From contig JABJMI010000805.1 of assembly GCA_018659505.1 (NCBI GenBank), forward strand, positions 1-10,747: DNA of 10,747 nucleotides, written 5' to 3'. The stretch is from Planctomicrobium sp. (GTDB lineage: Bacteria > Planctomycetota > Planctomycetia > Planctomycetales > Planctomycetaceae). This document shows positions 3,076 to 10,369 of this stretch, piece by piece. A program made the translations under genes and the position numbers. The notes under the pieces are model-generated. The model searched no databases and was not told the origin of the DNA. It worked only from the letters and a program-made list of their open reading frames with translations. Each line of letters starts with the position of its first letter. The stretch's first letter is position 1.

Positions 3076-4140
3076 ATGTACTTCGCGGCTAAGAATGGAG
3101 AGTTCGGCGTGATTCCTAAATCGATAGTTGCTGCGTTGATGGTTTGCGCCTGTTTGACGACTAGCGGAGTCGTTGAAGCACAAGGTGCAGAGTTAAACTG
3201 GGCTGAGAAAATGTTCTCGGACCTCAAAGTCGATTTCGGGACCGTCGCTCGTGGAGCAGATACTCGACATCAGATTGTCCTTGAAAATCTGTATGAAGAA
3301 GATGTGATCATTCTCGATGTCGACACCACTTGTGGTTGTACAGCTGCCAATCCTGACAAAACGATGTTGAAGACCGGTGAGAAAGCACGCATTGATGTCG
3401 TCATGGATACTCGAAAGTTCATGCACCGCAAAGATTCGAATGTCGACGTGACACTCGAATTCCATGGAGCGAAAGGGACGGCTACTAAAAAGATTCGTGT
3501 GCCAATCACGGTCTATATTCGTTCAGACGTTGTATTAACTCCGGGGAACGTAGATTTTGGTGTCGTCGACTTTGGACAAGCAGCCGAGCGTACGATCAAG
3601 GTTGCCTATGCAGGTCGGGAAGATTGGCAAATTAAATCAATTAAAAACGATACCAAAATTCTCAAGGCACAGATCGTTGAAACCGAGCGGGGTAATGGTC
3701 GCGTTACATATAGTTTGACTGTGCAACTTGATGGGAATTCCGGTATCGGCACATTCCAGGATAAACTCTATCTGGTCACCGACGATCAGAATTCCCCCGA
3801 GGTTCCAGTGCCGGTCGTCGGACGAATTGCTCCTGATATTGAGGTCGTTCCTGGTCAATTTGCCTTAGGCAATGTTTCTGCCGGAGATGTGAAACCATTC
3901 AATGTCGTCATCAAAGGGAGAAAACCTTTCGTGATTGAAAGTATTGAATGCGAGAAACACCCCGAAAGCTTTGAAATCCGCCCGCTGGCAGGCGAAGCGA
4001 AAACTGTTCATGTGATTCCGTTTCGCTTTACCGCTCCTGAACAGGTCGGAGAGTTCGCAGACACATTTACTGTGACTGTTGCCGGTCGCGAAGGAACTCT
4101 CTCATTCGGAGCAAATGGTGTTGTTGGCAGCGGTACTTAG
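3076..4140 (+). CDS. Secreted DUF1573 protein with Ig-like repeats
   Basis: A 354-residue exported protein. A signal peptide is visible: lysines at K6 and K15, a hydrophobic stretch SIVAALMVCACLTTSGVV (16-33), and likely cleavage after VEA (35). The first domain (about 47-150) is DUF1573: the VDFGTVARG strand start, then an N-x-Y step, then DVDTTCGCTAA with C86 and C88, the family's signature cysteine pair. Two further beta-sandwich repeats follow, at about 155-250 and 253-350. Each opens with the same pattern (VDFGVVDFGQ at about 159, FALGNVSAGD at about 262), resembling ASPM/SPD-2/Hydin-type modules. A GAAGAG ribosome site at 3068-3073 supports the ATG at 3076. The protein probably acts in the periplasm or on the cell surface. 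Its biochemical role is not established. The palindrome just upstream suggests regulated expression. Confidence 0.9.
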   Translation: MYFAAKNGEFGVIPKSIVAALMVCACLTTSGVVEAQGAELNWAEKMFSDLKVDFGTVARGADTRHQIVLENLYEEDVIILDVDTTCGCTAANPDKTMLKTGEKARIDVVMDTRKFMHRKDSNVDVTLEFHGAKGTATKKIRVPITVYIRSDVVLTPGNVDFGVVDFGQAAERTIKVAYAGREDWQIKSIKNDTKILKAQIVETERGNGRVTYSLTVQLDGNSGIGTFQDKLYLVTDDQNSPEVPVPVVGRIAPDIEVVPGQFALGNVSAGDVKPFNVVIKGRKPFVIESIECEKHPESFEIRPLAGEAKTVHVIPFRFTAPEQVGEFADTFTVTVAGREGTLSFGANGVVGSGT

Positions 4141-4462
4141 CTGTTAGAAATTCTACAGTATTACCATTTTAGAGCTGATTCTTGTTCGATTGAATCGGTT
4201 AAACACAAGTCGGATCTTAATGGATATCAAATTGGCGGTTCGATGCGGACAATGTGTTGATCGTAGCCATTCAACCCACAAAATGACGACGACAAAGTGT
4301 CTCTGTTAACTCAAGCTCAGTTCATCGTTAAACTGTGACATTGAACAATTGTTTCGTTATTCAACTACTCTTTATGTAGGAATTCACAAGCATCGATTCT
4401 TATTGAAGTCTGTTGTTTTAGATATTTTCAGATTCATCTATCTTTGGGAAGAGGGGTAAACA
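4141..4462. other. Intergenic region, no gene
   Basis: These 322 bp show no coding frame. Directly after the DUF1573 stop is a small hairpin (4141-4158, eight pairs with one bulge and essentially no loop) followed only by an AT-rich stretch, so it is at best a weak terminator. An AACAATTGTT palindrome sits near 4345. I could not pick out a -35/-10 pair for the next gene with confidence. Confidence 0.5.
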
Positions 4463-5224
4463 ATGGAGCCTACACAACATCCGGTCTGGAATGCCTTTAA
4501 GAACCGTTTAGCAGGAAAAGCGGGCTGGACTGAGGACAAAATTCTCGACCTTTGGACCGACTTTGTTAATGGAATGGAACTTCAGAAGCAATTCATTGCG
4601 AAAGACAAAACGAACAACACACACATCGCGAAAAAGACCTCCAATAAGCATTACGAAGGGATTGCCACGAAACTGAAAGAGAAATTGGTGGCAGCTGACG
4701 GAAAGATGGCATTGTGGTGTGGAGGCTATGGAGTCAGCGAATACGCTAGATACAAGGGTTACACAACACTCGAAAGTACAGTTTTGGGAGGAGCGTTTGA
4801 TCAGCTCTATGAACAGAATTTAAAGCCGAATAATATCTCCTGGGATGTCATTGCGCCGTTATGGAATGCTCTCTCTGAGATGTACGTCAAAATGGGGAAG
4901 TCGGCAGTCACTGTCTTTATTCGTGTTCACGATCCTATGAGTGTGCTGCTGAGAAAAGAGATCCCTGCGGTTGCGGGCAAGAATAATTTTATCAACAGGA
5001 CATTCGCAGATCTGGAAGATCTGTCATACGATGGGCTCTCATGGAGGGTCGTTTTTGGGGACGGAGCAAAAGAACAACTTAAGGAGCTAAACGAGAAAGG
5101 CGAATTAGTTGACAGCTATGGATTTATATCGCTAATGCAAGCCAGAAAAGTCCTCAAAGCCTATTTGGCTAAGAACTGTGACGGTCGGACAAACTTCGCT
5201 GCGAAAGCAATGAAAACCGATTGA
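4463..5224 (+). CDS. CD38/ADP-ribosyl cyclase-like NAD-consuming enzyme
   Basis: A 253-residue protein that I align by eye with human CD38 and Aplysia ADP-ribosyl cyclase over nearly its whole length. Blocks in order: VWNAFKNRL (8-16; CD38 has VWDAFKGAF); LWCGGYGVSEYA (84-95; Aplysia FWSGVYDEAHDYA); TLESTVLGGAFDQL (102-115; CD38 TLEDTLLGYLADDL); LWNALSEMY (133-141; CD38 FWKTVSRRF); KEIPAV (165-170; Aplysia YELPNL); WRVVFGD (194-200; CD38 AWVIHGG). This places W85, E104, W134 and E166 at the active-site positions, with E166 as the catalytic glutamate. Such enzymes cleave NAD to nicotinamide and cyclic or linear ADP-ribose. There is no signal peptide or membrane anchor and only two cysteines (C86, C239), so it is probably cytoplasmic. 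AGAGGGG at about 4449-4455 supports the start. It is a lone gene with no partner on its strand. The product type (cyclase or hydrolase) cannot be told from sequence. Confidence 0.72.
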   Translation: MEPTQHPVWNAFKNRLAGKAGWTEDKILDLWTDFVNGMELQKQFIAKDKTNNTHIAKKTSNKHYEGIATKLKEKLVAADGKMALWCGGYGVSEYARYKGYTTLESTVLGGAFDQLYEQNLKPNNISWDVIAPLWNALSEMYVKMGKSAVTVFIRVHDPMSVLLRKEIPAVAGKNNFINRTFADLEDLSYDGLSWRVVFGDGAKEQLKELNEKGELVDSYGFISLMQARKVLKAYLAKNCDGRTNFAAKAMKTD

Positions 5225-5289: not shown

Positions 5290-6213
5290 TCAGTCAATCT
5301 TAATCGGTGGGACGAAGTCATCTGGCTTCAAGGTCAGCAGCGAACAGTTAAGAGCTGGCAAAAGTCTTTCTGCGGTATTGCCGATCAAATAGCCTGGGAT
5401 TCCGCCACGGGCGATTGTCCCCATAACTAAGAGTCCGGCTTGATGTTCGTTCACTGCTTCTTCAACTACGGAATCAGCTGGACCACCTTGAATGACGACT
5501 TGCGTACCTTGCTGTAGAGTGCGGAAGTCGGTCATCGATAAGCGTTCGTTGACTTCGTCTTCAGCGTCTTGGCGGCATTTGGCTTTATATGCGTCAAGAT
5601 CCTCCTGGGACGCCTCTGTTCTTCGCATTGGACCTTCCAGCGGATAATTTACGGAATGTACGACGACAAGTCTGGCATCAATGAGTTGTCCGGTAGAGAC
5701 CGCTGCATGAAGAACTTTCTCACCAACTGGGGAAAAGTCATCCGCTGCGACAATCGTTTCAACATCCAATGGTTGAACATCTGGACGTGTAATAAAAACC
5801 GCACACGGACAACTTCGGATCAGCTTCATAGCAGTACTGCCGTAGAGCATCCGCTGGGCGGTCGTTTTCTCTCGCGTCCCTACGATGACCAAGTCCGAAT
5901 CTGATTGAATTGCTTCTCTCGTGATTTCGTACCAGCCTTTTCCGTAGACGATTTTAGAGCTGATCTGCATATCGCTCTGTGCCGAATCGTTGATCAATTC
6001 TCCTAATCGATTGTTGACAATCGACTGTGGGCTATCTGCATCATCCGCACCTGCTTCTAAGGACGGATCTAAAACTGTGATGAACGAAAGTTCTCCGCTG
6101 ACCATTTTTGCCAGCCAGATCGCTTTTTGAATTGCAACTTCAGTCGGCACAGGGAGTTTGCCGGTGTGTGAATTAAAATCGACACCAACGAGGATTTTTT
6201 TATACGACTGCAT
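5290..6213 (-). CDS. Tandem-domain universal stress protein (UspA family)
   Basis: A 307-residue cytoplasmic protein with two Usp domains, about 4-143 and 150-297, an arrangement like UspE. Domain 1 starts KKILVGVDF and ends in GTREKTTAQRMLYGSTAMKLI (112-132). Domain 2 starts ETIVAADDFSPVG and ends in GTIARGGIPGYLIGNTAERLL (265-285). Both resemble the G-x2-G-x9-G-S/T nucleotide-binding loop. Domain 2 keeps the glycine spacing, but N279 replaces the first Ser/Thr. Domain 1 has Lys-Thr where the second glycine is expected, so domain 2 is the better ATP-binding candidate. AAAGG eight bases upstream supports the start. The gene is convergent with the CD38-like gene, with 65 bp between stops. Usp proteins modulate survival under stress; the specific signal is unknown. 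Confidence 0.93.
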   Translation of the reverse strand: MQSYKKILVGVDFNSHTGKLPVPTEVAIQKAIWLAKMVSGELSFITVLDPSLEAGADDADSPQSIVNNRLGELINDSAQSDMQISSKIVYGKGWYEITREAIQSDSDLVIVGTREKTTAQRMLYGSTAMKLIRSCPCAVFITRPDVQPLDVETIVAADDFSPVGEKVLHAAVSTGQLIDARLVVVHSVNYPLEGPMRRTEASQEDLDAYKAKCRQDAEDEVNERLSMTDFRTLQQGTQVVIQGGPADSVVEEAVNEHQAGLLVMGTIARGGIPGYLIGNTAERLLPALNCSLLTLKPDDFVPPIKID

Positions 6214-6298
6214 GGGAAACCTTTACTGTTCTATTTGTAGCCCGCGAATGATTACGGTCTATTATCTCTGATTGTTGAATGTATTGAAACTATTGGAC

Positions 6299-6686
6299 AA
6301 CCACGAAACACACAAATGACACGAAAACACTGTCGTGAAAGACCCGCATGAGTCCCTGAATCTGTCTATCTCATTCTGAAAACTTAGACAGGATTGACAT
6401 GATGAACATGATAAATTTGGTGCCCCCCTCGAATTGAACGATCTCTACGTCCCTGAAGAGAATTCATAACAGGTCAGTCAATCATTCCAACGAAGGCAAA
6501 AATTTCTATTTGATGAAAAGAATGGAGTGCATCTTATCCTGTAAATCATGTCCATCCTGTCTACTTACTTTTGTCATAAAAGTGTGGAGCGTCAAGATTT
6601 TTCGATCGTCTTTGCATTTCCAAAGTTTCCTGATTTGTTTAGTGGCTGCCCTTTTTTCTTTCGTGTGATTCGTATATTTCGCGGTT
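6299..6686. repeat. Outer inverted repeat, CACGAAA type, in gene-free gap
   Basis: Arms at 6299-6326 and 6659-6686 are complementary at 23 of 28 positions; four of the five mismatches are transitions. Each arm stutters with period 9 (CACGAAA at 6302, CACAAA at 6311, CACGAAAA at 6320). The arms enclose a second, unrelated inverted pair. The whole gap 6214-6776 lacks a convincing gene: the open frame on the minus strand reads through the repeat arms and resembles no protein I know. Arms of this wording recur in many unrelated bacterial genomes, from memory often beside GxxExxY (PDDEXK-like) genes. No such gene is present here. Confidence 0.75.
6385..6563. repeat. Inner inverted repeat, GACAGGAT type
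   Basis: Arms at 6385-6414 and 6534-6563 are complementary at 26 of 30 positions, with about 119 bases between. The left arm is a period-9 series: GACAGGATT (6387), GACATGATG (6396), AACATGATA (6405). A third copy of CTGTCTA at 6362-6368 could pair locally with TAGACAG at 6385-6391, giving an alternative small hairpin. The pair sits symmetrically inside the outer repeat, 58 bases in from the left arm and 95 from the right. Confidence 0.75.
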
Positions 6687-6776
6687 AAAAGAGTCTCTTT
6701 TCTCACCAATCCGTCAACGGGTACATTATCTCTGATCGCAACGAATACTTTCATCGAAGACCTACGAACAATTTTT

Positions 6777-7598
6777 TCAACCTCGCAAATCAATTGCCTG
6801 CATTAAGTCGTTGGTTTTCTCGTATGCCTCTTGAACCCATTCTTCGATATTGTCGGGGTCGGGAGAATATTCTAGCTCAATAGAAATTGCCCCATCGATT
6901 TCGAGTTCCTTGATCTCTTTCAAGTAGGGAGCGAAGTCGACAACGCCTCGCCCAGGGGGTAAGTCTCCATGCTTCTTTCCATCGCAATCAGAGATGTGAA
7001 CATGGAAAGTCTTGCCACGGAGTTTTGAGATTTCATTGGCAGGAACTTTTGCAAGATGCAAATGTGAGATATCAATATTCGCTCCGACGGCTCGGTGACC
7101 GACTTCATCGACAAAATCGACCATTTTGTCGATGTTATTCAGTAGTGAGAGCGGAAACGGTTCGAGTTCCAATGCGATTCGTACTCCTAACTCACCCGCA
7201 TAATGAGCAAGCTCCATGCAACTTTCGACTGCCAGTTGCCATTGATCCTCAGGAGGAATGACTTCCTGATTCCAGATATATTCTCCCAGAACAAGTAGCA
7301 AATTGTCAGCCTGGTACTCATAAACCAAATCCAGAAACGACTTGCAGCGGTCAATATGAAACTGTTGAACACTCGGATTGAAGTCAATTAAACCCTCAGC
7401 GACGCAGCAGATCGAGCGGATCGGTAACTCCAGATCATCACATTTATCTTTAATGAGACGTCTTTCTCGCACATCGATATCAAGCGGATCGGTGAAGATA
7501 TCAACAGAGTCGAATCCGATCTGCTTCGTTTTCTCAAGTCCCCAAGAGGTTTCGCGTCCCGCTTGAGCCCACGCAGAATTAATCAGTCCCAATTGCAT
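6777..7598 (-). CDS. Sugar phosphate isomerase/epimerase-like TIM-barrel protein
   Basis: A 273-residue protein of the xylose-isomerase-like/AP-endonuclease-2 barrel family, which includes ketose 3-epimerases, hydroxypyruvate isomerase and inosose dehydratase. The N-terminus MQLGLINSAW and SWGLEKTKQIGFDSVDI are the usual first strand and helix. Expected metal ligands lie at strand ends: E144 or E146 in ALELEP, D176 and H179 in ANIDISHLH, H199/H201 in FHVHISD, and E241 in ISIELE. GRGVVDF (217-222 region) is the conserved arginine loop after the histidine strand. No signal peptide is seen, so it is cytoplasmic. No clear ribosome site precedes the ATG. It is divergent from the aldolase gene across 220 bp. 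The exact substrate cannot be read from sequence; a role in sugar or polyol interconversion is inferred. Confidence 0.88.
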   Translation of the reverse strand: MQLGLINSAWAQAGRETSWGLEKTKQIGFDSVDIFTDPLDIDVRERRLIKDKCDDLELPIRSICCVAEGLIDFNPSVQQFHIDRCKSFLDLVYEYQADNLLLVLGEYIWNQEVIPPEDQWQLAVESCMELAHYAGELGVRIALELEPFPLSLLNNIDKMVDFVDEVGHRAVGANIDISHLHLAKVPANEISKLRGKTFHVHISDCDGKKHGDLPPGRGVVDFAPYLKEIKELEIDGAISIELEYSPDPDNIEEWVQEAYEKTNDLMQAIDLRG

Positions 7599-7746
7599 TG
7601 AATTTCACTTGTTTGTAGAGAATCATAGGGTCCGACCGGTGGAGTGACGGTCGCTAGATCACTAAGATAACGCTTTTGAGTGTGAGATTCGAATCGGTAG
7701 AGCTCTCTCATTTCCTTTTCATCTCAACAAATCTAAAAGTCGTTGA

Positions 7747-7765
7747 ACCAATCGTTCAGATTGGT
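7747..7765. promoter_or_regulatory. Hairpin/dyad upstream of aldolase gene
   Basis: ACCAATC and GATTGGT form perfect 7-bp arms around GTTCA, in the gap between the divergent isomerase-like and aldolase genes. A possible extended -10 (TGCTATATC, 7769-7777) begins four bases after it. The dyad would then overlap the -35 zone of the aldolase promoter as an operator. The promoter match is weak. Confidence 0.3.
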
Positions 7766-7818
7766 GATTGCTATATCCCGAGCAAATAAATTTAAGAAAG
7801 AATTACAGGAGCCATTAA

Positions 7819-8859
7819 ATGCCAGTCGCAACACCAGCACAATACGCAGCGATGATTGACGCTGCTCAAGCAGGCGATTACGCCTACCCCGCTATCAACG
7901 TGACATCGCTCGTCACAATCAATGCCGCTTTGAAAGGTTTCGCTGATAAAGGTTCCGATGGAATTATTCAGATGTCGACCGGTGGCGGAAAATTCGCTTC
8001 GGGATTAAACGTCGGTGACGAAGTTTTAGGAAGTATTGTTTTAGCGGAAGCGATTCACCGCCTCGCTGAGAGATATGACATTCTCGTCGGAATTCATACT
8101 GATCACTGTCCACCTAAAGCTGTTGATAGTTTCTTGAAGCCATTGATTCAAGCGACCGCAGATCGTCGCGCAGCTGGGCAAGGAAATCTATTCCAGTCGC
8201 ACATGCTTGATGCTTCGAACTTACCACTTGAAGAGAACATGGCACTCTCTAAGGATCTCCTCAAGATGTGTGTCGAGAATGAAATCATCCTCGAGATCGA
8301 AGCCGGTATCGTCGGTGGAGAAGAAGACGGTGCCGCCGGTGCCGAAATGGAAAACATTCCAGACGATAAACTCTACACAACACCTGAAGACATGGTTCAG
8401 GTGCACGAAGCATTAAGTGACATTGGTCGCTTCCTCTTCGCTGCGACTTTCGGAAATGTTCACGGGCACTACAAGCCAGGTTCAGTTACCTTACGACCGG
8501 ACATTCTCAAGAAAGGACAGGAAGCAGTTGTTGCTAAGTATGGTAAAGATGCTGCGTTTGATCTTGTTTTCCACGGTGGATCGGGAACACCTCGTCACGA
8601 ACTTGAAGAGACACTCGCATACGGCGTCGTGAAGATGAATATCGACACCGACACTCAATATGCCTTCACTCGTCCCATCGTTGGTCACATGTACGAAAAC
8701 TATTCAGGTGTCCTGAAAGTTGACGGCGAAGTCGGCAACAAGAAAGTTTACGACCCACGTGCCTACTTGAAGAAGGGTGAACAAGGAGTCGCAGACCGCA
8801 TCGGTCAAGCATGCGACGATTTGCACTCAACCGGAAATTCAATCTTCGGCAAAGTCTAA
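7819..8859 (+). CDS. fbaA: Class II fructose-bisphosphate aldolase
   Basis: A 346-residue zinc-dependent aldolase that interconverts fructose 1,6-bisphosphate with dihydroxyacetone phosphate and glyceraldehyde 3-phosphate in glycolysis and gluconeogenesis. It is of the E. coli FbaA subgroup. GIHTDHC (91-97) supplies catalytic D95 and zinc ligand H96. EIEAGIVGGEEDG (159-171) includes E161. FGNVHGHYKPG (211-221) gives zinc ligand H215. FHGGSG (251-256) gives zinc ligand H252 and the phosphate-binding loop. KMNIDTDTQYAF (272-283) is the second phosphate-binding segment. Length is close to the 359 residues of FbaA. The start is fixed by AGGAG at 7807-7811, the best ribosome site in the window. 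It is monocistronic: a strong terminator follows 29 bases after the stop. No key residue is missing. The enzyme is cytoplasmic. Confidence 0.96.
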   Translation: MPVATPAQYAAMIDAAQAGDYAYPAINVTSLVTINAALKGFADKGSDGIIQMSTGGGKFASGLNVGDEVLGSIVLAEAIHRLAERYDILVGIHTDHCPPKAVDSFLKPLIQATADRRAAGQGNLFQSHMLDASNLPLEENMALSKDLLKMCVENEIILEIEAGIVGGEEDGAAGAEMENIPDDKLYTTPEDMVQVHEALSDIGRFLFAATFGNVHGHYKPGSVTLRPDILKKGQEAVVAKYGKDAAFDLVFHGGSGTPRHELEETLAYGVVKMNIDTDTQYAFTRPIVGHMYENYSGVLKVDGEVGNKKVYDPRAYLKKGEQGVADRIGQACDDLHSTGNSIFGKV

Positions 8860-8888
8860 TCCTTTTCGAACGAAGCTTTATGATTTTC

Positions 8889-8923
8889 AAGAAGCCCGAC
8901 AACCTGTCGGGCTTCTTTTTTTT
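8889..8923 (+). terminator. Intrinsic terminator of the aldolase gene
   Basis: A perfect 12-bp stem (8889-8900 with 8906-8917, core AAGCCCGAC/GTCGGGCTT) with loop AACCT runs directly into eight Ts (8916-8923). It lies 29 bases after the aldolase stop and ends that transcription unit. Confidence 0.95.
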
Positions 8924-8974
8924 CAATGCACTTTATGAGGTGTTTTTGAGTCTTAGGTTTCAGAGAGTATAAAG

Positions 8975-9039
8975 CACGCAGAGACGCAGAGAACGCTAAG
9001 TTTTCAGTGATTTCTCCGCGATCTCTGCGGCTCTGCGTG
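8975..9039. repeat. Hairpin repeat, ACGCAGAG type
   Basis: Arms at 8975-9000 and 9014-9039 pair at 22 of 26 positions around a 13-base loop. The left arm repeats ACGCAGAG at 8976 and 8984, with a degraded third unit at 8993. Unlike the terminator 50 bases earlier it has no T-run. The ACGCAGAG wording is one I remember as dispersed in many distant bacterial genomes. Confidence 0.8.
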
Positions 9040-9124
9040 AGACAATTTTCACTTCATCTTTATGAGAAGAATCATCCTTTTCTGACTCTTGTGCTCCAGC
9101 GTAATTTTGATCCTTTTAAATTGA

Positions 9125-9178
9125 AACGCAAAGACGCCAAAAATCCTTTGCACCTTCGCGTCATTGCGACTTTGCGTT
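9125..9178. repeat. Hairpin repeat, ACGCAAAG type
   Basis: AACGCAAAG (9125-9133) and CTTTGCGTT (9170-9178) are exact complements. The pairing extends inward to 9140 and 9163, at 13 of 16 positions overall. The unit ACGC recurs at 9126 and 9134 (period 8). A partial inner copy (CCTTTG...CACCTTCGCGTC) suggests the right arm also stuttered before decay. It is related in design, though not in wording, to the repeat 90 bases upstream. Confidence 0.7.
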
Positions 9179-9285
9179 GAATGATGTCTCTTTCATCATC
9201 TGCAATAATGACGTCCAGCAGTTTCTTCTCAGAGACCTTTCCAACTGTTATTGATTTCAAGTCACCATGAGTGCGATCTATATGC

Positions 9286-9316
9286 TTGCACATCCTCTCT
9301 ACGAAATTGCTACAAT
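9286..9316 (+). promoter_or_regulatory. Candidate promoter of the sugar ABC operon
   Basis: An extended -10, TGCTACAAT (9308-9316), matches TGnTATAAT at all but one position. A poor -35-like TTGCAC (9286-9291) lies 19 bases before the hexamer, which is long spacing. The expected start near 9323 would leave a leader of about 55 bases. Confidence 0.4.
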
Positions 9317-9324
9317 CTCGAATC

Positions 9325-9341
9325 AAACAATGTTATTGTTT
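9325..9341. promoter_or_regulatory. Dyad at the predicted transcription start of the ABC operon
   Basis: AAACAAT-GTT-ATTGTTT has perfect 7-bp arms and begins about nine bases after the -10 hexamer, a typical repressor-operator position. It is 38 bp upstream of the binding-protein ATG. It lacks the central CG of classic LacI-family sites, so the regulator type is open. Confidence 0.4.
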
Positions 9342-9379
9342 TAATGACTTTAATCGCTCGATAAATCCAGGGGAACCTC

Positions 9380-10369
9380 ATGCTTCGACACCTTCTTTGT
9401 CCGTTGATTCTCGTTACGTTATTCCTCTCTGGTTGTGCTGGTTCGAAAGAACAGGGAACTCCCCAGACAACCGACTCCCCAACAGTTACAGAATCACGAG
9501 GAACAATCGGATTCTCTGCACTCGACTTAAAGAATCCATTCTTCAAAATCATCGCAGACACACTGACCGAAGCTGCAAAAGAAGAAGGCTTTGAAGTCGT
9601 TGTCACAGATGCGGAAAGTGATGTGAACAATCAATCGAAACAGATTGACAACTTCATCGCCCAGGAAGTGACAGCTATCATTCTTAACCCTGCTAATCGA
9701 ATATCAATTGCACCAGCGATTCAAAGGGCGAACGAAGCAGGCATTCCTGTGTTTACCTGTGATTTACAATGTGAAGCCGATGATATTGAGATCATTGGGC
9801 ATATCGGCACAGATAATTACTCAGGAGGCAGACTCGCTGGAAAAGCAATGATTGAAGCTCTGGGGGAAGCAGGAGGAGAAGCACTTGTTTTACATTTCAA
9901 ACAGGCGAATTCGTGTGTTGAAAGAGTCAACGGTTTCAACGACGAAATCAAGGAATACAACGAGGGGAAAGAGTCTGGTCAAATTAAAGTTGTTTCGGAA
10001 CTCGAAGGAGGAGCTTCGCAAGACATCAGCTTGAAAGCGACTCAGGATGCTCTGCAACAGCACCCCAACTTGGCTGGGATTTTTGCCATCAACGACCCGT
10101 CAGCTTTAGGGGCAGTGGCAGCTCTCAACCAATCTGACAAAGCCGACCAGATTCAAGTCATCGGTTTCGATGGCCAATTAGACGGGAAACAGGCAATCAA
10201 AGATGGAAAGATTTATGCCGACCCAATTCAATTCCCCAAAAAAATGGCAACCGGAACCGTCCAGAACATCGTGAAATACCTAGACGGCGAAGAAGTGACT
10301 ACAGTTGAACTCATCCCAACCGAACTCTACCGCAAAGAAGACGCAATGAAAGATCCGGAATTGAAGTAA
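9380..10369 (+). CDS. Sugar ABC transporter substrate-binding lipoprotein
   Basis: A 329-residue lipoprotein of the RbsB-like periplasmic binding family that captures a sugar for an ABC importer. The lipobox LSGC (16-19) makes C19 the lipidated residue, followed by a polar linker to about residue 40. The mature two-lobe fold shows KNPFF (51-55), INDPSALGA-like hinge residues (237-245), VIGFDG (260-265) and DPIQFP (281-286). Compared with E. coli RbsB from memory, the ligand contacts N, F, F, the Asp of CD, R182, N238, D264 and Q284 are kept. The arginine after the Asp (LDRQ in RbsB) is leucine here (CDLQ, 127-130). This argues against simple D-ribose binding. The start is fixed by AGGGGA at 9369-9374. 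The ATPase gene follows after 93 bp on the same strand. Confidence 0.93.
   Translation: MLRHLLCPLILVTLFLSGCAGSKEQGTPQTTDSPTVTESRGTIGFSALDLKNPFFKIIADTLTEAAKEEGFEVVVTDAESDVNNQSKQIDNFIAQEVTAIILNPANRISIAPAIQRANEAGIPVFTCDLQCEADDIEIIGHIGTDNYSGGRLAGKAMIEALGEAGGEALVLHFKQANSCVERVNGFNDEIKEYNEGKESGQIKVVSELEGGASQDISLKATQDALQQHPNLAGIFAINDPSALGAVAALNQSDKADQIQVIGFDGQLDGKQAIKDGKIYADPIQFPKKMATGTVQNIVKYLDGEEVTTVELIPTELYRKEDAMKDPELK

Follow-up and report, generated by a model that had tools for sequence, protein, structure and literature searches.

The window analysed here is a stretch of 10,747 nucleotides that makes up the whole of contig 304 (JABJMI010000805.1) of a Planctomicrobium sp. genome (assembly GCA_018659505.1), and it holds a gene for a protein that resembles the ADP-ribosyl cyclase (ARC) enzymes, among them animal CD38. 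It is proposed from sequence relationships that this window protein is very probably a cytosolic-type NAD(P)+ nicotinamide-cleaving enzyme of ARC (CD38) fold. It stands alone, belonging to a bacterial clade of long-form ARC proteins, and the Streptomyces proteins of that clade resemble cargo of contractile injection systems (CIS). The gene, its putative ribosome-binding stretch and the codons of its four predicted active-site residues are as follows:

4463..5224, + strand: ADP-ribosyl cyclase-like (ARC) protein, 253 aa, free-standing (open reading frame with ATG; relatives at 28-33% identity; profile match to CD38/Tac1; fold)
4447-4456, + strand: putative ribosome-binding stretch GGAAGAGGGG, purine-rich, 5' of the ATG (sequence)
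4715..4717, + strand: codon of W85, at the position of CD38 W125 (in register in the PDB profile alignments; invariant 17/17)
4772..4774, + strand: codon of E104, in TTLE, at the position of CD38 E146 (in register in the PDB profile alignments; invariant 17/17; Ala in the further relative L061)
4862..4864, + strand: codon of W134, in PLWNALS, at the position of CD38 W189 (in register in the PDB profile alignments; invariant 17/17)
4958..4960, + strand: codon of E166, in KEIP, at the position of the catalytic CD38 E226 (opposite Glu in 3gh3 and 3p5s, Gln in 3gc6; invariant 17/17)

An in-frame TAA at 4457-4459, two codons 5' of the ATG, excludes an N-terminal extension of the protein. No signal-peptide-like or membrane-anchor-like hydrophobic stretch was seen in it (top 11-residue hydropathy 0.6 within the first 40 residues), and it has only two Cys, at positions 86 and 239. 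The four residues stand where the original prediction had placed them, with its spacings of 19 (W85 to E104) and 32 (W134 to E166) confirmed on the sequence; E104 and W134 are 30 apart, and lobes of 84 and 87 residues lie before W85 and after E166. The gene has a GC content of 45% (51% at third codon positions), the corresponding values of its seven neighbours being 46-49% and 44-47%. Scanning for promoters and terminators gave no useful information.

Relatives were found in actinomycete records. Among plasmids, tblastn gave one record, from Streptomyces sp. SAT1 (28% identity over residues 6-251, E=3e-19), whose protein keeps all four active-site residues. A first scan of the genome-contig collection gave no relative; a two-row alignment then found 16 loci in it, all from Streptomyces, Streptantibioticus or Actinacidiphila, in a scan with two short patterns that is therefore not exhaustive. 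No relatives were found in phages or in viral contigs. The window protein and the 16 loci form alignment A2 (17 rows; SAT1 was left out, having been found by another tool), in which W85, E104, W134 and E166 are invariant, likewise T101, N135, S138, S160 and V161 and, in a C-terminal part conserved across the alignment, W194, E208, L215, Y234 and L235. The window protein is the outlier of A2, with 28-33% identity to each row, the others sharing 44-97% among themselves. A profile of those other 16 rows scores it at 125 bits (E=1.5e-37) and, under the default filters of HMMER, reports 0/1000 shuffles and not the reversed protein either.

When 177,635 distinct PDB sequences were searched with A2 by hmmsearch, seven matched at E<=10. 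The top five are all ARC chains (5bnf, E=4.9e-4; 3gh3, 0.06; 3p5s, 0.081; 9ouf, 0.19; 3gc6, 0.34), the remaining two (both E 1.2) are unrelated, and only 5bnf lies under 0.001. Entry 5bnf is titled porcine CD38, and 3gh3, 3p5s and 3gc6, which we take to be bovine CD38, are named CD38 molecule. Entry 9OUF is the structure of the bacterial toxin Tac1 (PMC12356396), though the depositor's name for it reads Ribonuclease. In the alignments with all five ARC chains W85 and W134 face Trp, and E104 (in TLE) faces Glu; the E-[IV]-P segment of the family, which holds E166, meets Glu in 3gh3 and 3p5s, meets Gln in 3gc6 and is unreached in 5bnf and 9ouf. The stretch between E104 and W134, which the original prediction had found shortened where the animal proteins hold a disulphide-rich insertion, indeed faces a Cys-holding insertion of the CD38 chains. 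This PDB result and the shuffle control led us to reject a chance resemblance, and the likeness of motifs is accordingly more than accidental: the four residues are invariant, the profile of the other rows recognises the window protein, and no shuffle was reported.

Several results do not favour this assignment. Taken alone, the window protein gave no Pfam match up to E=10, none in NCBIfam or PADLOC and one PHROG match (E=0.19); PF02267, the CD38 family, has no score over its gathering cut-off (25 bits) and no match at E<=10, so the profile match by which the homology was to be checked is lacking; and phmmer against the PDB found RtcB alone (E=1.3-1.4). In the comparison of the predicted fold the Foldseek E-values are 0.2 or worse, and RsbR tops the VIA list. 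The search of BFVD structures gave nothing under E 0.1, and a structure prediction made without an alignment was of no use (pLDDT, the predicted local distance difference test, 46.7).

Across the family, PF02267 matches 14/17 members at E<=1, all below the cut-off (best E=0.01; 11.1-13.7 bits among the scores displayed) and the window protein not among them. In the fold comparison the top Foldseek row is CD38. Of the 50 VIA rows listed, 49 show CD38, Aplysia cyclase or CD157, the alignments starting at model residue 5-6 and ending at 196-238; those with Aplysia cyclase cover model residues 5-6 to 236-238 and chain residues 4-5 to 250-251. The fold is predicted with moderate confidence, and the structural comparison that had been suggested points to CD38 in its Foldseek ranking and not in its E-values. 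Homology to CD38 and Aplysia cyclase is well supported by the family profile, the sub-cut-off PF02267 matches of the relatives and the fold comparison, though neither PF02267 on the single protein nor the Foldseek E-values speak for it.

Two native genes flank the ARC gene:

3076..4140, + strand: DUF1573 protein, upstream neighbour (family match; one match at E<=1e-30 in each of five congeners)
5290..6213, - strand: universal stress protein (Usp), convergent downstream neighbour (family match; one match at E<=1e-30 in each of five congeners; synteny)

The genes at 5290-10369, encoding Usp, a TIM-barrel isomerase-like protein, a class II aldolase and a periplasmic sugar-binding protein, form a block that is collinear in 4/4 congeners examined. 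DUF1573 is located elsewhere in those four, and the ARC gene, which was not found in five congeners, sits at a break in gene order. Contamination of the contig was considered and rejected on the single DUF1573 and Usp matches and the collinear block. The host genome (4.65 Mb in 951 contigs, 75% complete) gave 42 matches to SBP_bac_10 (DUF1559), a hallmark family of planctomycetes, against none in 14 control genomes, which indicates a planctomycete host. Only 65 bases separate the ARC stop from the convergent Usp gene, so that no immunity gene could lie between them, and neither gap flanking the ARC gene holds an open reading frame of >=60 aa. No immunity family was found among the nine window genes or two smaller open reading frames, the rest of the genome not being searched for Imm genes, and no mobile-element family among the nine window genes scanned.

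The gene is sporadic, being present in its own genome only among 40 relatives' genomes and 392 genomes sampled from the phylum. On the latter A2 gave one added match (G189, E 1.4e-4), which was rejected, as it sits at the start of an open reading frame that we read as kinase-like without a family search. A PF02267 scan of 30 relatives' genomes gave 11 matches in nine genomes at E<=10, all of them under the cut-off and none from G000, and 3/14 control genomes also gave matches at that threshold.

The original prediction had taken the family to be mostly animal, a premise that is out of date. Zhang et al. (2012) named Tox-ARC, a domain of polymorphic toxins from six bacterial groups that are delivered by type II, V, VI and VII secretion systems (T2SS, T5SS, T6SS, T7SS) and paired with Imm74 or Imm63, and proposed that animals and fungi acquired ARC from bacteria (PMC3482391). 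In 2025 Colautti et al. characterised Tac1 and Nac1 and argued for convergence with CD38 (PMC12356396), and Martinkus et al. characterised ARCtox (PMC12605009). Arc domains are also reported in a few viruses and a Streptococcus phage (PMC9503650). As described in these sources, bacterial ARC proteins are compact toxin domains that carry delivery parts and in most cases have immunity partners, besides non-toxic ones of which the secreted cyclase Nac1 was tested (PMC12356396, PMC12605009, PMC3482391). Bacterial ARC enzymes are therefore known; the present one is a variant that stands alone and has the long form, and its phylum does not appear in the portions of the ARC literature covered here.

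Compared with CD38, CD157 and Aplysia cyclase (PF02267), the window protein shares the active-site register (seen with CD38 chains) and has comparable numbers of residues ahead of the first Trp and beyond the catalytic Glu, and its predicted fold resembles theirs over residues 5-6 to 196-238, but it lacks the Cys-containing insertion between E104 and W134, has two Cys only, shows no sign of a signal peptide or anchor and escapes PF02267 when searched alone. Like Tox-ARC, it is a bacterial ARC domain predicted from sequence; the Tox-ARC row of the published table names neither planctomycetes nor PVC/CIS (PMC3482391). With Tac1 (Streptococcus parasanguinis, 9OUF) and ARCtox (Pantoea PANA_2924) it has the W/E/W/E active site and, as predicted, the bacterial ARC fold in common, and mutation of the equivalent active-site residues in both toxins counts in favour of the proposed activity (PMC12356396, PMC12605009). 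Unlike it, however, these are compact C-terminal toxin domains (crystal construct 458-602; chains 250/252-385) whose constructs end 29 residues after the catalytic Glu, as computed from residue numbers, against 87 in the window protein, and Tac1 is without helices of the animal enzymes (PMC12356396). They also come joined to LXG or PAAR and have an immunity gene as partner, whereas the window protein has no trafficking domain and no adjacent immunity gene. The extent of the lobes and of the VIA alignments with Aplysia cyclase is why we call it a long form, CD38-like in extent. Nac1 from Actinophytocola oryzae is a non-toxic ARC that makes cyclic ADP-ribose (cADPR) and ADP-ribose about equally and has Ala at the E146 position (PMC12356396). 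It resembles the window protein in having no toxin-system neighbours and no immunity gene, but it has a predicted signal peptide, Glu123 as the catalytic residue and Ala in place of the E146-type Glu, which the window protein, itself without a sign of a signal peptide, retains.

The closest known kin are 17 Streptomycetaceae long-form ARC loci (L010-L026; L010 is annotated as a hypothetical protein), which share 28-33% identity with the window protein, mostly over the whole length, and the same four residues. An N-terminal tag of the type LQRxAGNxAV, presumably a mark of CIS cargo, is present in 9/17 by strict pattern and as a variant in six more by eye, none being seen in L022 and L026; plasmid proteins of Streptomyces clavuligerus, one of them annotated DUF4157, likewise match the tag-bearing segment of SAT1. 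The Pfam domain eCIS_core occurs in 2/4 Streptomyces relatives scanned. In contrast, the window protein has no region before the ARC domain, and hence no such tag, and no eCIS_core. The sheath family PF04984 is present in 15/15 genomes searched whole (the L026 genome was left out, and the SAT1 plasmid record has none), against a background of 129/199 genomes in a sample of the genus Streptomyces, many with two or more matches. Ten genomes of that sample have any ARC match, five of them full-length, and all five are among the 129. By chance 15/15 would have a probability of ~0.0015 (0.648 to the 15th power), but the species are related and some stand in both sets; since PF04984 also matches phage tails, we regard the co-occurrence as support, not proof. 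L010-L026 are thus likely CIS cargo with a predicted NAD-cleaving domain. In the genome of the window protein, which is 75% complete, no PF04984 sheath gene was found, other secretion systems not being searched.

A literature search joining extracellular contractile injection systems (eCIS) with ADP-ribosyl cyclase or CD38 found nothing, subscription papers and preprints lying outside its scope, and the terms CD38 and cyclase are absent from the main text of an eCIS toxin paper (PMC11297309); an ARC protein of Streptomyces mirabilis is included in Figure 5A of PMC12605009. Clustering of open reading frames at the Streptomyces loci for a common immunity neighbour let none stand out; one neighbour cluster recurs in 6/17 loci and is an ABC transporter in the single member scanned. 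Two near-identical truncated copies (L062:2883-3371, L063:2481-2981) consist of the tag and the N-terminal ARC lobe without the catalytic part. A further Streptomyces relative (L061:967-1911, - strand) has Ala at the E104 position, as Nac1 does, and is possibly a natural cyclase-type member; by its sequence, the long-form clade may include both E104-keeping and Ala types.

Applied to a 396-genome sample of the phylum of Streptomyces, A2 gave two matches at E<=1e-5. One is the member that belongs to the centre genome itself; the other is L057, a compact Tox-ARC open frame (1-606) of 201 aa that runs off the contig start (E 3.7e-9 per genome; 17.6 bits with PF02267, also under the cut-off). An Imm74 gene (533-874, E 2.7e-14) adjoins it, so that the profile has recovered a Tox-ARC/immunity pair. 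By our own reading, a transposase-like open reading frame lies downstream of the pair.

We infer the activity, product and role of the window protein from these relationships. By homology, NAD+ would be bound in the cleft between the helical lobe and the small beta-sheet lobe, stacked by W85 and W134; nicotinamide would leave, whereupon E166 would stabilise the oxocarbenium-like intermediate, and E104 would direct that intermediate to water, giving ADP-ribose, over release of cADPR. The product is expected to be mainly ADP-ribose, as with CD38 and Tac1. A point against this is Aplysia cyclase, which has the E104-type Glu yet makes cADPR. Our lean towards ADP-ribose stems from the retention of E104, the absence of that Glu from Nac1 and the release of cADPR by Tac1 E516A (PMC12356396). 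NAD cleavage, the one half of the function originally suggested, is therefore likely by homology, and the other half, intracellular cADPR signalling, is possible.

As to role, we tentatively favour a sporadic, horizontally spread enzyme of effector type, or one that is self-limiting, that would deplete NAD in conflict or stress, because of the sporadic distribution and the kin of the protein. That it is itself a delivered effector, loaded into a contractile injection or other secretion machine without the usual tag, is somewhat doubtful: its Streptomyces relatives carry the marks of CIS cargo (eCIS_core 2/4, strict tag 9/17, sheath 15/15 against 129/199), but the protein has nothing before its ARC domain, a stop codon standing two codons 5' of the start, and no sheath was found in its incomplete genome, the only secretion family searched for. 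A Nac-like cyclase making cADPR inside the cell under some trigger would agree with the lack of a delivery domain, signal-peptide sign and adjacent immunity gene, and the A. oryzae enzyme sets a precedent for a non-toxin ARC producing cADPR (PMC12356396). Such stand-alone signalling is nevertheless unlikely, as the protein keeps the E104 that Nac1 is without (a weak argument) and lacks the predicted signal peptide of Nac1, its nearest relatives resemble CIS cargo, sporadic presence suits core signalling poorly and no partner gene was seen. We give still less credence, though not a negligible amount, to the idea that, among bacterial ARC proteins, the long-form clade and not the compact toxins stands closest to animal CD38, and that the planctomycete member is a regulated enzyme which consumes NAD or signals by cADPR within the cell that makes it.

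A reading of the gene as a decayed remnant, an ARC domain gained by horizontal transfer and since deprived of both delivery part and activity, is quite improbable. Its sporadic distribution, its position at a gene-order break relative to four congeners and the truncated copies L062 and L063 elsewhere would fit such decay, but the frame is full-length, all four active-site residues are kept, a purine-rich stretch precedes the start and the composition is near that of the neighbours. An unrelated helical protein with chance motifs would explain why no single-sequence match was found, why the Foldseek E-values are weak and why RsbR comes first in VIA; this is very hard to credit given that the top five PDB profile matches are all ARC chains in register and that the same profile recovered the Tox-ARC/Imm74 pair.

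The preferred reading, an NAD-cleaving enzyme of the long-form clade, is of interest because, with a free-standing, leaderless, CD38-sized member, it can be tested whether bacteria turn the ARC fold on NAD of their own and whether animal CD38 stands nearer to the long form. The clade also suggests that Streptomyces contractile injection systems may carry ARC enzymes as cargo. Divergent ARC-like segments lie in further genomes of the Streptomyces sample (L058:1986-4001, L059:975-2114, L060:866-1870); PF02267 gives no match in L059 and L060 and one below its cut-off in L058, and the W/E/W/E residues are discernible by eye.
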